From positions 2,914,001 through 2,978,000 of the forward strand of contig NZ_CP031148.1 of the NCBI RefSeq assembly GCF_003342675.1: 64,000 nucleotides of DNA. Direction: 5' to 3'. Every line of letters begins with the position of its first letter. Position 1 is the stretch's first letter. The position numbers and the translations under genes were made by a program. This document shows, piece by piece, positions 43,969 through 48,637 of the stretch. The notes beneath the pieces are model-generated. The model was not told the DNA's origin. It saw only the letters and a program-made list of their open reading frames with translations, and ran no database searches. This stretch comes from Haloplanus rubicundus. Lineage in GTDB: Archaea > Halobacteriota > Halobacteria > Halobacteriales > Haloferacaceae.

Positions 43969-46900
43969 TTAGTTGTCGCGCCGGACGGCCAGCAGCGCAG
44001 CCGCGATGAGCGCGATGACGGCGACGAGGGCACCGAAGCCAGGACCGCCACCCTCAGTGGGCGTCGGCGTGGCCGTTGCCGTGTCCGTCGGTTCCGGCGT
44101 CGGTTCCGGCGTCGGTTCCGGCGTCGGTTCCGGCGTCGGTTCCGGCGTGTCAGTCGGCGTCGGTTCCGGCGTCTCCGTCGGTTCCGGCGTTGCCGTCTGG
44201 ACGCTCTGGACGATCTCTACCTGAACGAGGTCCGTGTTCTCACCGTCGTCGGCTTCGAGGTCGTACGTGCCCGTCTGGACGTCTTCCAGCTCGAGGCTCG
44301 TCGACCACGTGCCGTCGTAGGACCACTCGTCGGTGGTCGCGAGGGCGACCGAGTCACCCTCGCTCGTCAGCAGTTCGACGGTGATCGAGTTGTCGTCCGG
44401 ACGCAGGTTGGTCGCACCTTCAACGACCATCGTGTCGTCGACACCAACCGGGTTGACACCGGAGGCTTCCATGCCTTCGGGGTAGACCGTCTGAATCTGC
44501 GTCTGCGCGTCGGCGTAGCGGAAGTTCGCCGTGACCATGCGGTCGTCACTTCCAGTCTCCTCGATCGTGTCGGCAACGACGTTCGCGCGGATCTGCGCAC
44601 CCGTCGAGCTGCCGAAGTTCTTCGTATCGAGGTAGCCGTCGATGTCGGACTCGCCGGTCGTGCCGTATTCGCCGTCACGACCGGGGATCAGGATGTGGAC
44701 GCTGACGCGCTGGCCATCCTCGAGACCGCTGATGGACACGTCGTCCTCGTCGAACGTGTTGTCGTCGTCGACCGAGATGTCCGCGGTGTGCGTGCCACCA
44801 CGGTCGCCGACGAACAGGACGTCGACGTTCGAGGCGCCGAACGCACTACCCGAGATGTTCACGGTCGAGTCGGTGGTCGAGACCTGACCGCCGACGGTCT
44901 TGACCGTCGCCGACAGTTCCGTGTCGGTCACCCGCAGCGACTGCTGGGTGCTCGTGTTCGTGTTGAACTCCGAGGGCGACAGGTCGTAGTCGTCGTTGGT
45001 GTCGGGCGAGCCCGAGAGGCCGCCGACGTCAACCACACCGAAGCGGTAGGTGCCGGGGAGCGACAGGATGTCGTTCCCGGTGCCTTCCCCTTCGCTGAGG
45101 ACGACGTCTTCCTCTTCGAACGTGCCGTCGGCGTCGACGGTGATCGTGTTGGAGCCGTCGATTTCGACGATCTCGTAGTCGTCGTTACGGCGGGCGAAGA
45201 AGGCAACGTCGTCGATGCCTTCCGAGGCCGTGCCGTTGACCTCGACTTCGCTGCCGACGACGTACGCGTTACCGGGCGATTCGATCGAGAGGTCGCCTTC
45301 CTCGACTTCCAGCGTCTGCTCGTCGTCCTCGCCTTCGGTGTCGGTCGTGCTACCGAGCTCGAACGGCACTTCAGTCGTCCCGTTGTAGAGCGTCATCTCG
45401 ACGTCCGTCTCGTCGAGGTACTGCGTCTCGATCTGACCGACGCCGACACCCGTGTCGTCGTCGATCGTGATGTTGGCGTAGGCGTACTGCATGTCGCCGT
45501 TGATGCCAGTGTCGTCAACCGTCGACCGGTTGTACTTGGCGGCATCGCCGGGCGAGTCGGTCACGACACCGACTTCGCTGGTGTCGCCGACCTGCCGGAA
45601 GATCCGCGCGGCGTTCTCGGGGGAGACGCCGTCACGGAAGTCGTCAGCCTCGATGATGACCACGTGCGTGTCACCAGCGTCCGAACCGCCAATCTCGAAG
45701 CGGACGTCCTCACCGCGGACGACGTTGTCCGAGTCGAGTTCGATGTTCGCGTCGTCATCACCGGTGACGGTGATGGTCGTGGACTGGCTGGCCTGACCGA
45801 AGCCGAGGTCGTCGGTCCCGGCCAGGGTGATCGTGTACGTGCCCGTACCCGTGTTCGCGAGGTCGATCGGGTAGAGGACTTCGTTGACCGCTGCGTCGCC
45901 ACCGCGGCTGGCGCCTTCAGGGTTCGTGAAGCTCTGGCCCGTCTCGCTACCGGTGCGCACGGCGTCGTTGGATTGCTGCACGTTGTCGTCGATGACGTCA
46001 CCGGTCACGTCGAGACCGGAGTCGTCCTCGACGGTCAGTTCGAGGTTCTCGGCGTCCTGGTAGTTCCAGGCACCGACGACGGTCAGGTTACCGGCGTTCG
46101 TGCCGTCCTCGCCGCTGGTCGGGCTCGTGCCCTCAGCGACGGATCCGCCCGCGATGTCCTCGAGGTTGCTGTTGAGGACGTCCAGCGTGGTCACACGCGG
46201 CGTCTGGACGGTCACGCCCGGACTGCCGGCGTTACCGGACGTCGTGTAGGAACCAGTCGGCTGGTCCTGGGGGACGTTCGGCGTTTCGAGGGGGACGCCC
46301 TCGGCGTCACCGGCCGTCTTCTCGACGCCGCCGGAGATGGCGCCGGCGAGGAAGACGTCGGATTCACCCTGGAAGACGGTCGCACCACTGTAGATGGTAC
46401 CCGTACCGTCCTGGGTGTTGAACTCACCGACCTCACCGTTCGGACCCGCGCGGGTCTCGTCGGTGCTGACGGTGACGGTGTCAAGGGTGGTGTCACCACC
46501 ACTGGTGCTCCTCAGATCCACGTCCACGTCACCGCTGGTAGTGATATCAGAGTAGTCTATCTCCACTTGAGCTTCAACTCGGTACTCATTACCAGTGCCA
46601 CTGGTAGTTGTGGAGTCGTAGACAATCTGCGGCGCGCTAGCTTGCTGAGTGGATACCGGGACCTCTTCTCGGGAATTGTTAATGATGGAAACATCACTAA
46701 CGTCCGTAATCGAAGCGGAACCGGTAACGGCACCGTCGTTTAGCGTGAGGATGATCTCCTCACTAGAATTGCCGAAGTTCGGGTCTTCGGTCACGTTGAA
46801 TACCACACTATGCGTTACTGTCGTGTTCGCAACGTTCGTCGGAGGCGTACCCGCATCCGACGGTTGCGTACCAACATTTGCCGCAGCAGCCGAGCCTGAC

Positions 46901-46983
46901 AGCGCCACGGTGCCAGCGAAGACGCTGAACACCATGAGCGCGGCCAGGATGACTGCGCGGACCTTCTGATTATAGTCTGTCAT
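43969..46983 (-). CDS. csg: S-layer glycoprotein
   Basis: A 1004-residue surface protein. Signal peptide (about 1-35, ending GSAAAANVG), then repeated beta domains with many Asn-X-Ser/Thr sites, very high Asp/Glu/Thr content and few Lys. A membrane-proximal domain (about 860-940) has GATNLRPDDNSITVEL. The C-terminus has a Thr/Pro/Glu spacer (TPEPTPEPTPEP repeats), GGGPGFGALVAVIALIAAAL and the RRDN end, the PGF-CTERM signal for archaeosortase and lipid attachment. This is the major cell-wall lattice protein, judged by size and anchoring. Codon choice is strongly biased. Confidence 0.93.
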   Translation of the reverse strand: MTDYNQKVRAVILAALMVFSVFAGTVALSGSAAAANVGTQPSDAGTPPTNVANTTVTHSVVFNVTEDPNFGNSSEEIILTLNDGAVTGSASITDVSDVSIINNSREEVPVSTQQASAPQIVYDSTTTSGTGNEYRVEAQVEIDYSDITTSGDVDVDLRSTSGGDTTLDTVTVSTDETRAGPNGEVGEFNTQDGTGTIYSGATVFQGESDVFLAGAISGGVEKTAGDAEGVPLETPNVPQDQPTGSYTTSGNAGSPGVTVQTPRVTTLDVLNSNLEDIAGGSVAEGTSPTSGEDGTNAGNLTVVGAWNYQDAENLELTVEDDSGLDVTGDVIDDNVQQSNDAVRTGSETGQSFTNPEGASRGGDAAVNEVLYPIDLANTGTGTYTITLAGTDDLGFGQASQSTTITVTGDDDANIELDSDNVVRGEDVRFEIGGSDAGDTHVVIIEADDFRDGVSPENAARIFRQVGDTSEVGVVTDSPGDAAKYNRSTVDDTGINGDMQYAYANITIDDDTGVGVGQIETQYLDETDVEMTLYNGTTEVPFELGSTTDTEGEDDEQTLEVEEGDLSIESPGNAYVVGSEVEVNGTASEGIDDVAFFARRNDDYEIVEIDGSNTITVDADGTFEEEDVVLSEGEGTGNDILSLPGTYRFGVVDVGGLSGSPDTNDDYDLSPSEFNTNTSTQQSLRVTDTELSATVKTVGGQVSTTDSTVNISGSAFGASNVDVLFVGDRGGTHTADISVDDDNTFDEDDVSISGLEDGQRVSVHILIPGRDGEYGTTGESDIDGYLDTKNFGSSTGAQIRANVVADTIEETGSDDRMVTANFRYADAQTQIQTVYPEGMEASGVNPVGVDDTMVVEGATNLRPDDNSITVELLTSEGDSVALATTDEWSYDGTWSTSLELEDVQTGTYDLEADDGENTDLVQVEIVQSVQTATPEPTETPEPTPTDTPEPTPEPTPEPTPEPTPEPTDTATATPTPTEGGGPGFGALVAVIALIAAALLAVRRDN
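44089..44148. repeat. Five tandem copies of a 12-bp repeat in csg
   Basis: CGGTTCCGGCGT repeated five times without change (44089-44148, minus-strand coding for TPEP units). Similar but imperfect units flank it. The segment encodes the Thr/Pro spacer before the membrane anchor, and could change length by slippage. Confidence 0.85.
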
Positions 46984-47045
46984 TTTTTACGTTGTTGTTG
47001 GACCGCAGTGACATTCCAGAGGTCCTTCCTCTTTCCTGCCGATTT

Positions 47046-47077
47046 GTGGCTCCGCCGTCCCGAAGGGACAGCGCCAC
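47046..47077 (-). promoter_or_regulatory. Stem-loop in the S-layer mRNA leader
   Basis: In the 244-bp gap 46984-47227, GTGGC...GCCAC encloses an 8-bp stem (GCTGTCCC with GGGACGGC, one G-U pair) and a TTC loop, read on the minus strand. The ATG of csg is at 46983, so the hairpin lies about 63 nt upstream. A TATA-like CATATACC near 47109-47117 would start a leader that includes it. It probably stabilises the mRNA or controls translation. Confidence 0.55.
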
Positions 47078-47227
47078 CACTGGTAGGGGTACGGGCATTT
47101 CTTTACCCAAGTATGGTATATGTTTTGTGGTATTGTCGTGTGTGTGTCAGACAACCCCGAGAAGCGAGGCCGGCCGCGGTTGCCGGAAACCGGACGCCAT
47201 TTACGTCGCCCGCGCGGAGGGACGGGC

Positions 47228-48082
47228 ATGCGACGCCGCGCCTTCCTCGCTTCGGCCGGAATCGCCGCCCTCGCCGGCTGCTCCAGCGGTAACGACGATG
47301 GAGACGGGTCGGACGGAACCGCGACGCCGACGGCAACATCGACGGGCACCGGGACGCCGAACTTCGAACTCCGCGGCGCCGAAATTCCCGAGGCACGGGC
47401 GTTGAACGTCCCCACCGCCATCGCCGTCGCCGTCCAGAACACGGGGACCGGTGCGGGAACGTTCACCTCGACGCTCGAACGACGCGTCGACGACGGGGAG
47501 TGGGAGACGGCGGCCAACATCGAGATGCCCCTCGAAGCGGGCGAGACGGGGGAGTGGCACAGCCCCCGATTCGCACCGCGGTATCTGGCGACGCTTCACT
47601 TCCGACTCGCGGCGTTCGACGAGACGTGGTCGATGGAGATCGCCCCGAAACGGCTGGATTTCGGACTCTACTACGCCGCGCCGACGGGACTCTACCTCAA
47701 CGTCCTCGGTGGCTCGTTCGAATCCGAGTACCCAGCGCCGAGCAACGAGACGGACACGACGGCCAACGAGACGCTGACGCCGACGACGGCGCCCGACGGC
47801 GAGACGTGGGCGATCATGCGAGTCGACGTGCGAAATCGATTGGAAGAGCCCCAGACCACGCCCGCCGCCGACGAGTTCGTGTTGACCGTCGACGGCGAGC
47901 CCCGACCCCAGCATCAGGAGGTCACGGACGATCCGTACGAGGGCGGCGAACTCGCCGGCCGAACCGTCACGCGCGGCGACTTGGTTTACTCCGTGCCCGC
48001 GGGAACACAGGCGCGCGATATCACAATAACGTGGGAGTCTTCGCTCCCCGACGGCGACGTGAAGGCCATCTGGACGAAGTGA
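47228..48082 (+). CDS. Tat-exported lipoprotein, hypothetical
   Basis: 284 residues. RRRAFLASAGIAALAGCSSG has twin arginines and a lipobox with Cys at about 18, followed by a Thr/Asp-rich spacer. The mature part is beta-rich with VAVQNTGTGAGTFTSTLERR, resembling a CARDB/DUF-type fold found in haloarchaeal lipoproteins, and LVYSVPAGTQARDITITW near the end. Function unknown. CATTTACG at 47198-47205 is a TATA box about 26 nt before the ATG. Confidence 0.78.
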   Translation: MRRRAFLASAGIAALAGCSSGNDDGDGSDGTATPTATSTGTGTPNFELRGAEIPEARALNVPTAIAVAVQNTGTGAGTFTSTLERRVDDGEWETAANIEMPLEAGETGEWHSPRFAPRYLATLHFRLAAFDETWSMEIAPKRLDFGLYYAAPTGLYLNVLGGSFESEYPAPSNETDTTANETLTPTTAPDGETWAIMRVDVRNRLEEPQTTPAADEFVLTVDGEPRPQHQEVTDDPYEGGELAGRTVTRGDLVYSVPAGTQARDITITWESSLPDGDVKAIWTK

Positions 48083-48374: not shown

Positions 48375-48533
48375 TGCCCGGGGTGGGCTCCGAACCCACG
48401 ATCTCCGCATGTCCCAGGTTACGAGGCTCGGCGGGCCTCGAGGGAGACGGAGGCTTCCAAGGCCGAGGTGTATCCGCACCGAATCTCGAATACCCTATGA
48501 GTGCGGCGCTATGTCCAGCTAAGCCACCCGGGC
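48375..48533 (-). tRNA. Elongator tRNA-Met (CAT) with an intron
   Basis: The acceptor GCCCGGG pairs with CCCGGGC, discriminator A. The 5' exon ends CCGCACTCATA, with anticodon CAT; the 3' exon begins A-TGCGG and continues GTGGG-TTCGGAG-CCCAC. Joining them gives a CCGCA/TGCGG anticodon stem and the loop CTCATAA. The intron by this reading is 48411-48495 (85 nt), following the base after the anticodon. Haloarchaeal elongator tRNA-Met is known to carry an intron at this position, cut by the splicing endonuclease at a bulge-helix-bulge. Confidence 0.93.
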
Positions 48534-48637
48534 GCAGTAAGTCGTAGGCAAATGCCGCCCTTGAAGCTTCCCATATCCGTCCACCCCGTCGACGCACAGC
48601 CGGCAGTATTATGATTCGCGACGGGGACCATCCCCGC

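Follow-up and report, generated by a model that had tools for sequence, protein, structure and literature searches.

Haloarchaeal transcripts are described as mostly leaderless (PMC6523106), and 5'-UTRs longer than 100 nt as rare in haloarchaea (PMC6490895). In a 64,000-nucleotide stretch of the Haloplanus rubicundus genome (the window, with positions counted from its first letter), an earlier note placed a strong stem-loop some 63 nt upstream of the S-layer gene csg, and took it for part of a structured leader that might give an abundant mRNA its long life, or control it. The locus raises the question of whether this stem-loop belongs to a conserved mRNA leader, how far such an element extends, and what it may do for an S-layer gene.

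The csg leader in the window

The csg gene (43969-46983, minus strand) encodes a 1004-aa S-layer glycoprotein with a signal peptide and a PGF-CTERM (TIGR04216, TIGR04207, TIGR04126, PF18204). Its product scores 745 bits against TIGR04216 (cut-off 400) and also exceeds the cut-offs of TIGR04207 (S-layer signal) and TIGR04126 (PGF-CTERM), as is characteristic of an S-layer glycoprotein of the HVO_2072 type. Upstream lies a predicted BRE/TATA, CCACAAAACATATACC (47115-47130, minus strand), recognised from its sequence and from its distance to the leader motif, which is also found in relatives. The TATA core (47117-47120) stands 31 nt ahead of CCCCTA, and this is also the commonest spacing among 89 pairs of TATA core and CCCCTA (31 nt in 50, with 28 nt in 2, 29 in 22, 30 in 3, 32 in 10 and 34 in 2; 29 or 31 in 72). 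Given a BRE/TATA at the commonest spacing, and by comparison with related leaders, transcription is predicted to start near 47092, at GTACCCC, yielding a 5' leader of about 109 nt (46984-47092, minus strand) that contains the stem-loop; a start downstream of the hairpin, the one result that the earlier note had named as speaking against its reading, is not indicated. Further upstream, GTCTGACACACACACG (47137-47152, minus strand) starts 25 nt ahead of the BRE/TATA match, and among 38 regions upstream of csg-family and related genes, GTCTGACA is present in 11; from this recurrence, GTCTGACACACACACG/GTCTGACA is a possible activator site.

The stem-loop itself, hairpin 1, is real and slightly longer than first described: it occupies 47046-47080 on the minus strand, an extent of 47046-47077 missing three bases of the 5' arm, and its 3' end lies 62 nt upstream of the csg ATG at 46983, close to the distance originally given. 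Its 14 pairs form an outer block of five and an inner block of nine with a 2x2 loop between them; the folding energy is -24.8 kcal/mol (z -4.57), and none of 200 dinucleotide shuffles was equally stable. The 115-nt stretch as a whole is only mildly unusual (z -1.92, with 10 of 200 shuffles as good), so that energy favours hairpin 1 rather than the leader as a whole, and it is the comparative evidence that makes the case. The next ORF (47228-48082, plus strand, its start picked by eye) is divergent from csg, and hairpin 1 therefore cannot be its terminator. As for an intrinsic terminator or attenuator acting on csg, the window reads AAAUCGG after hairpin 1 instead of a U-run, and a four-U run 3' of the hairpin occurs in none of the 23 aligned leaders described below.

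The csg element exceeds the hairpin that was first noticed, and consists of a 5'-terminal ACCCCUACC, hairpin 1, hairpin 2 and an A/C-rich linker. Its 5'-terminal motif, GUACCCCUACC (47082-47092, minus strand), is mostly single stranded by prediction and near-invariant across the aligned leaders. Hairpin 2 (47010-47040, minus strand), identified by covariation and on its own not unusually stable in the window (z -0.64), has GGCA/UGUC and GAGG/CCUC stems and a 5x5 purine-rich internal loop (xGAAA / NGGAx). The linker (46984-47009, minus strand), defined by the composition of 23 leaders, leads up to the start codon without a Shine-Dalgarno (SD) sequence.

Comparison of Haloplanus-form leaders

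Searches with TIGR04216 in 60 relatives yielded paralogs and orthologs of csg, and 38 upstream regions were compared. Nine lack the motif (in two cases the gene is the second of a pair, 9-11 nt after the first, and in one it is not csg-like) and six have other leader types; the remaining 23 make up alignment A1, with 21 sequences from Haloplanus, one from another genus of the family (L057) and one from Haloferacaceae archaeon XH8 (L003). The 5' end reads ACCCCUACC in 20 of them, GCCCCUACC in two and ACCCCACCC in L057. When the segment is folded alone, without a shuffle control, a stem of 6-14 pairs appears at the place of hairpin 1 in all 23 leaders, irregular in L036 and with just 6 pairs in the own-genome paralog L040. 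The conservation of the hairpin that the earlier note had proposed to look for in related csg leaders thus holds for the stem, while sequence and length vary. MAFFT misregisters L003, L057 and L036 at hairpin 1 (as judged by eye), which lowers the covariation count there.

Pair counts speak for the fold. Across 13 named pairs of A1, 91.2% of cells are paired, as against 32-45% when the partner is slid, and two-sided changes are seen in 8 of the 13 compared with 2.8 in shuffles. The strongest signal comes from a pair of internal-loop columns, 56:81, whose bases close that loop and which read C:C in 11 leaders, U:U in 7, G:A in 3, C:G in 1 and U:C in 1; their mutual information ranks first of 2299 gap-free column pairs, and none of 10000 shuffles, which ignore kinship among the sequences, reaches its value. 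Such non-Watson-Crick covariation points to a putative three-dimensional RNA motif.

A covariance model of the Haloplanus form (R1) matched 10 of 391 genomes of the class. Its 17 Haloplanus matches, in nine genomes, are all training leaders, and the one further match (G108, E 0.009) precedes an ORF that by eye resembles methionyl-tRNA synthetase and was taken as chance; the search of the 391 genomes gave no new member beyond the training leaders. The 78.5 bits that the window leader (L081) scores against R1 are likewise those of a training member. Hairpin 1 is a lineage-specific part of a larger leader element.

Over its last 2455 nt, csg is 97.1% identical to L040 (G000:C2:3271039-3280456), but the first 560 nt or so align over just 104 nt, located at the signal peptide (83%); further paralogs are L041 (84%) and L056 (about 67%). 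Judged by these alignments, csg and its paralogs look like mosaic S-layer genes whose N-terminal regions may have been exchanged.

The class-type leader and its relation to the Haloplanus form

The 5' motif recurs in other genera. Of 59 TIGR04216/NF041335 genes, 37 have CCCCTAYC in the 200 nt ahead of the start (0.43 on average and at most 3 in shuffles), and 46 of the 59 regions are reached when four near variants, which carry no shuffle control, are added; 59 of 60 regions were counted, L111 having given no start, and starts were set by a script heuristic. The pattern CAAAN{27,37}ACCCCTACC was found at 70 places in the 60 relatives, in 43 of the 60 genomes; a backward-read control matched 39 places, so that the pattern on its own lacks specificity. 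Among 47 pattern rows examined from these 70 places, 37 have a TATA-like core, and in 36 of these an ORF with an S-layer-type signal peptide N-terminus follows, the exception being L177 with no ORF. The 10 rows lacking a TATA-like core comprise eight before unrelated or no ORFs, the Haloplanus csg L172, whose TATA was missed by the pattern, and a second reading of L162. In the rows examined, the pattern becomes specific once a TATA-like core is required. The window shares this 5' feature of the class leader, with GUACCCCUACC at 47082-47092 near the TATA-predicted start.

The class-type fold was derived from alignment A3, which keeps 22 of the 32 sequences of alignment A2; the 10 dropped had P1 out of register in MAFFT, or a different leader. 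It comprises an 11-pair helix P1 (GGUGRCAUCAG with CUGNUGUCGCC) around a GAGUA/GAAAG loop, and inner helices P2 and P3. In A3, 82.2% of cells are paired, 14 of 22 pairs are changed on both sides, where shuffles give 9.2 and only 3 of 500 get as far as 14, and the covariation score is 0.271, as against 0.165 for shuffles and no more than 0.122 for slid structures. Given that the structure was drawn from the same sequences, the slid control is biased in its favour, and the P2 pairs are the weakest.

A covariance model built from the 22 leaders (R2) found matches in 203 of the 391 genomes of the class, which span 52 of 86 genera, with 17 of the 203 having supplied training sequences and one, G003 (E 9e-4), probably reflecting an out-of-register match to L049 rather than a clean member. 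In the 188 genomes where R2 has no match, divergence, filters or absence may be the cause. We inspected 70 strong matches, a non-random set of the 30 best and 40 chosen among the matches listed, of which 10 coincide with training sequences and 60 do not. A same-strand ORF recognised by a signal-peptide HMM made from csg-type genes starts between -3 and +19 nt from the model end in 69 of the 70; in the seventieth, L256, the ORF reads MTNDNNTRKKANAVFFSAIMVLSMV, by eye an S-layer-type signal peptide. Nine weaker matches (E 8e-11 to 8e-4) behave similarly, eight of them having a signal-peptide ORF that starts at the model end (six clear by HMM, L274 at HMM E 0.048 and L275 by eye); the ninth is the G416 match described below, which has none. 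In the alignment of the 70 fitted to R2, which leans to the model, 20 of 22 pairs show two-sided changes (score 0.334 vs 0.171), and in the 60 independent leaders, in an alignment with the same leaning, pairing reaches 87.4% for the cells of P1 and 82.2% over the whole structure. The bases of the GAGUA/GAAAG loop are kept in 60-70 of the 70 leaders, per base. In a sample of the phylum R2 matched 19 of 196 genomes, the sole one outside the order being G416, where the match (L281, G416:C1:597170-597224) is 55 bases long, scores 26.3 bits, reads GAGTACCCCTACCCATGG and has no signal-peptide ORF; it is probably due to chance.

The window leader itself scores 14.6 bits against R2 (E 0.08 in a 177-kb search) and has no P1 with GAGUA/GAAAG. 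On Haloplanus-type loci, R2 finds 12 of 19 at E up to 10, with 17.2 bits for the best in-register match; the 26.9 bits at L049 are out of register. A single model for both leader forms is not claimed, R2 being weak on Haloplanus-type leaders. The two forms have in common their position, the 5' terminus, a linker rich in A and C and, as judged by eye, the segment CUGUC in the 3' half, and since R2 performs poorly on the Haloplanus type, common descent of the bodies rests on these four features. Haloplanus probably remodelled the P1/GAGUA-GAAAG body and gained hairpin 1, which would be a new helix following the 5' motif and preceding a second, shorter one.

The own genome also contains one class-type leader (G000:C2:1213878), before another surface glycoprotein gene, with a csg paralog 9 nt on. 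The arrangement is seen in two Haloplanus genomes (L041:708-825 and L037:7582-7700), where an R2 leader precedes a different surface glycoprotein gene and a csg paralog without a leader of its own follows 9-11 nt behind that gene. In three genomes, at L210 (G395), L213 (G201) and L224 (G389), the R2 leader stands elsewhere than at the TIGR04216 gene compared, whose upstream region has no motif. Where there are several candidates, the R2 leader may point to the main S-layer gene.

Possible roles, rival explanations and known RNAs

An RNA-level element ahead of S-layer genes is well supported by the comparison of sequences, and the earlier claim of a structured leader on the S-layer mRNA agrees with the promoter position, the covariation in 23 leaders, the class-wide leader with the same 5' end and the absence of a terminator U-run. 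We think it rather probable that the csg leader is the Haloplanus form of a haloarchaeal S-layer cis-acting RNA leader, most likely with a constitutive role in stability or translation. The leader body would be transcribed and, we infer, act as RNA; its fold would shield the 5' region of a highly abundant S-layer mRNA from decay, the start region would be kept open for SD-independent initiation, and a protein is possibly bound at the purine-rich internal loop. The long mRNA life, or control, that the earlier note proposed would be a plausible role.

The start region is compatible with this constitutive reading. In the last 15 nt before the AUG, the A+C fraction is 0.84 in the class set of 70 leaders, compared with 0.54 overall, and 0.88 in A1; these 15 nt are predicted to be unpaired to 83% in both sets, as against 36% (class) and 41% (A1) for the body, and within the last 20 nt nothing SD-like was found in any of the 70 class-type or 23 A1 leaders. 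Since a lack of pairing is what A/C-rich sequence would show anyway, the open linker indicates compatibility with initiation and not selection for openness. Pairing of GTACCCCTACC with the 16S rRNA of the own genome was considered and rejected: the best contiguous run is 7, matched by 920 of 1000 shuffled motifs. More tentatively, the leaders may constitute a haloarchaeal RNA family that marks cell-coat mRNA, in which GUACCCCUACC and the internal-loop body would recruit a dedicated protein for decay, translation or delivery to secretion. Eukaryotic TOP mRNAs, with their 5'-terminal class mark, are the comparison for such marking by GUACCCCUACC.

Other explanations have to be weighed against the constitutive leader. 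The fold could bind a protein or ligand and, through decay or initiation, match the output of S-layer protein to growth, salt or export status; its conserved internal loops (GAGUA/GAAAG and the x:x position) resemble a binding site, and haloarchaeal 5'-UTR stem-loops together with 3'-UTRs are described as needed for growth-phase translational control (PMC2636863). However, neither a terminator nor SD sequestering was seen in the folds examined, predictions for 70 leaders leave the start region open on average, and there is no known ligand or protein; we regard a regulated RNA of this kind as possible, if rather unlikely. Since the structural gene behind it is presumably highly expressed, the leader is most simply read as a constitutive one that stabilises the mRNA or promotes its translation, and it is most likely of this kind rather than a switch.

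The evidence for RNA also bears on readings at the level of DNA or of a peptide. That GTACCCCTACC is an initiator or promoter-proximal site, conserved by the needs of transcription, would fit its narrow spacing from the TATA core, but would leave the compensatory paired changes deeper in the leader unexplained; we hold it to be improbable for the element, and the 11-mer alone may have a DNA-level role. Still less probable is a leader peptide or uORF controlling csg by translation from an AUGG near the 5' end: such an AUGG starts at bases 10-17 in 61 of 70 class-type leaders, and some ATG is present in 14 of 23 A1 leaders, yet its frame relative to csg is mixed (36/16/9), the stop lies inside the leader in 28 and past the csg start in 33, the 14 peptides compared diverge, no AUG in A1 has a conserved position, and the conserved bases belong to P1. 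A chance hairpin without function could be invoked given that GC-rich sequence yields many hairpins and that the energy of the whole leader is so little out of the ordinary, but it is scarcely credible in the face of the stability of hairpin 1, the stem in every aligned leader and the covariation.

Several known RNAs invite comparison. The bulged-G (sarcin-ricin) consensus has AGUA opposite GAA with helices on both sides, and in sequence, class-type leaders have 5'-AGUA-3' facing 5'-GAA-3' in the manner of this loop, also called loop E; the window leader is without AGUA/GAA, the Haloplanus form having a different, symmetric 5x5 loop. Archaea have L7Ae-bound kink-turn leaders, which the S-layer leader resembles in having a purine-rich G-A internal loop in an archaeal 5'-UTR; the kink-turn consensus places a three-base bulge beside tandem G.A pairs, whereas the A1 internal loop is symmetric, 5x5, and has no one-sided three-base bulge. 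With riboswitches it shares the conserved structured 5' leader ahead of one gene class, but no terminator or SD sequestering was seen in the S-layer leader, and the gene is structural, not metabolic. The 5'-UTR stem-loops of Brenneis and Soppa (2009) are likewise haloarchaeal leader structures affecting translation, described in the abstract for two individual genes and not as a conserved RNA family (PMC2636863). A protective stem-loop has been predicted in the Lactobacillus slpA mRNA (PMC6482533), and the untranslated leader of L. acidophilus slpA is alike in belonging to an S-layer gene; that leader is bacterial, whereas the haloarchaeal one has a fold backed by class-wide covariation, a conserved 5' terminus and no Shine-Dalgarno sequence.

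At gathering score, Rfam release 15 reports only a tRNA at 935-1009 in the window and nothing in L152, and with E up to 1 it gave one sub-threshold match on nine leader loci, outside the leader. No description of an S-layer leader RNA was found in the open-access literature searched; the main texts of PMC4983044 and PMC6490895 have no mention of S-layer, HVO_2072 or surface glycoprotein, and S-layer, csg, HVO_2072, VNG2679 and glycoprotein are all absent from that of PMC8303175. On this coverage, the S-layer leader would be a new RNA element, though of a familiar type, the structured mRNA leader. Its presence across the class would offer a handle on the making of a very abundant protein, a system in which to test SD-independent initiation on mRNAs that have a leader, and possibly an expression part for use in haloarchaea, and the TATA core followed at about 31 nt by CCCCTACC would serve as a simple signature for main S-layer genes among many surface glycoproteins.

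Elsewhere in the window, ARAGORN together with Rfam (gathering score) detected just the tRNA at about 934-1009; by eye, a minus-strand segment at about 48379-48535 resembles an intron-containing tRNA-Met (CAU).
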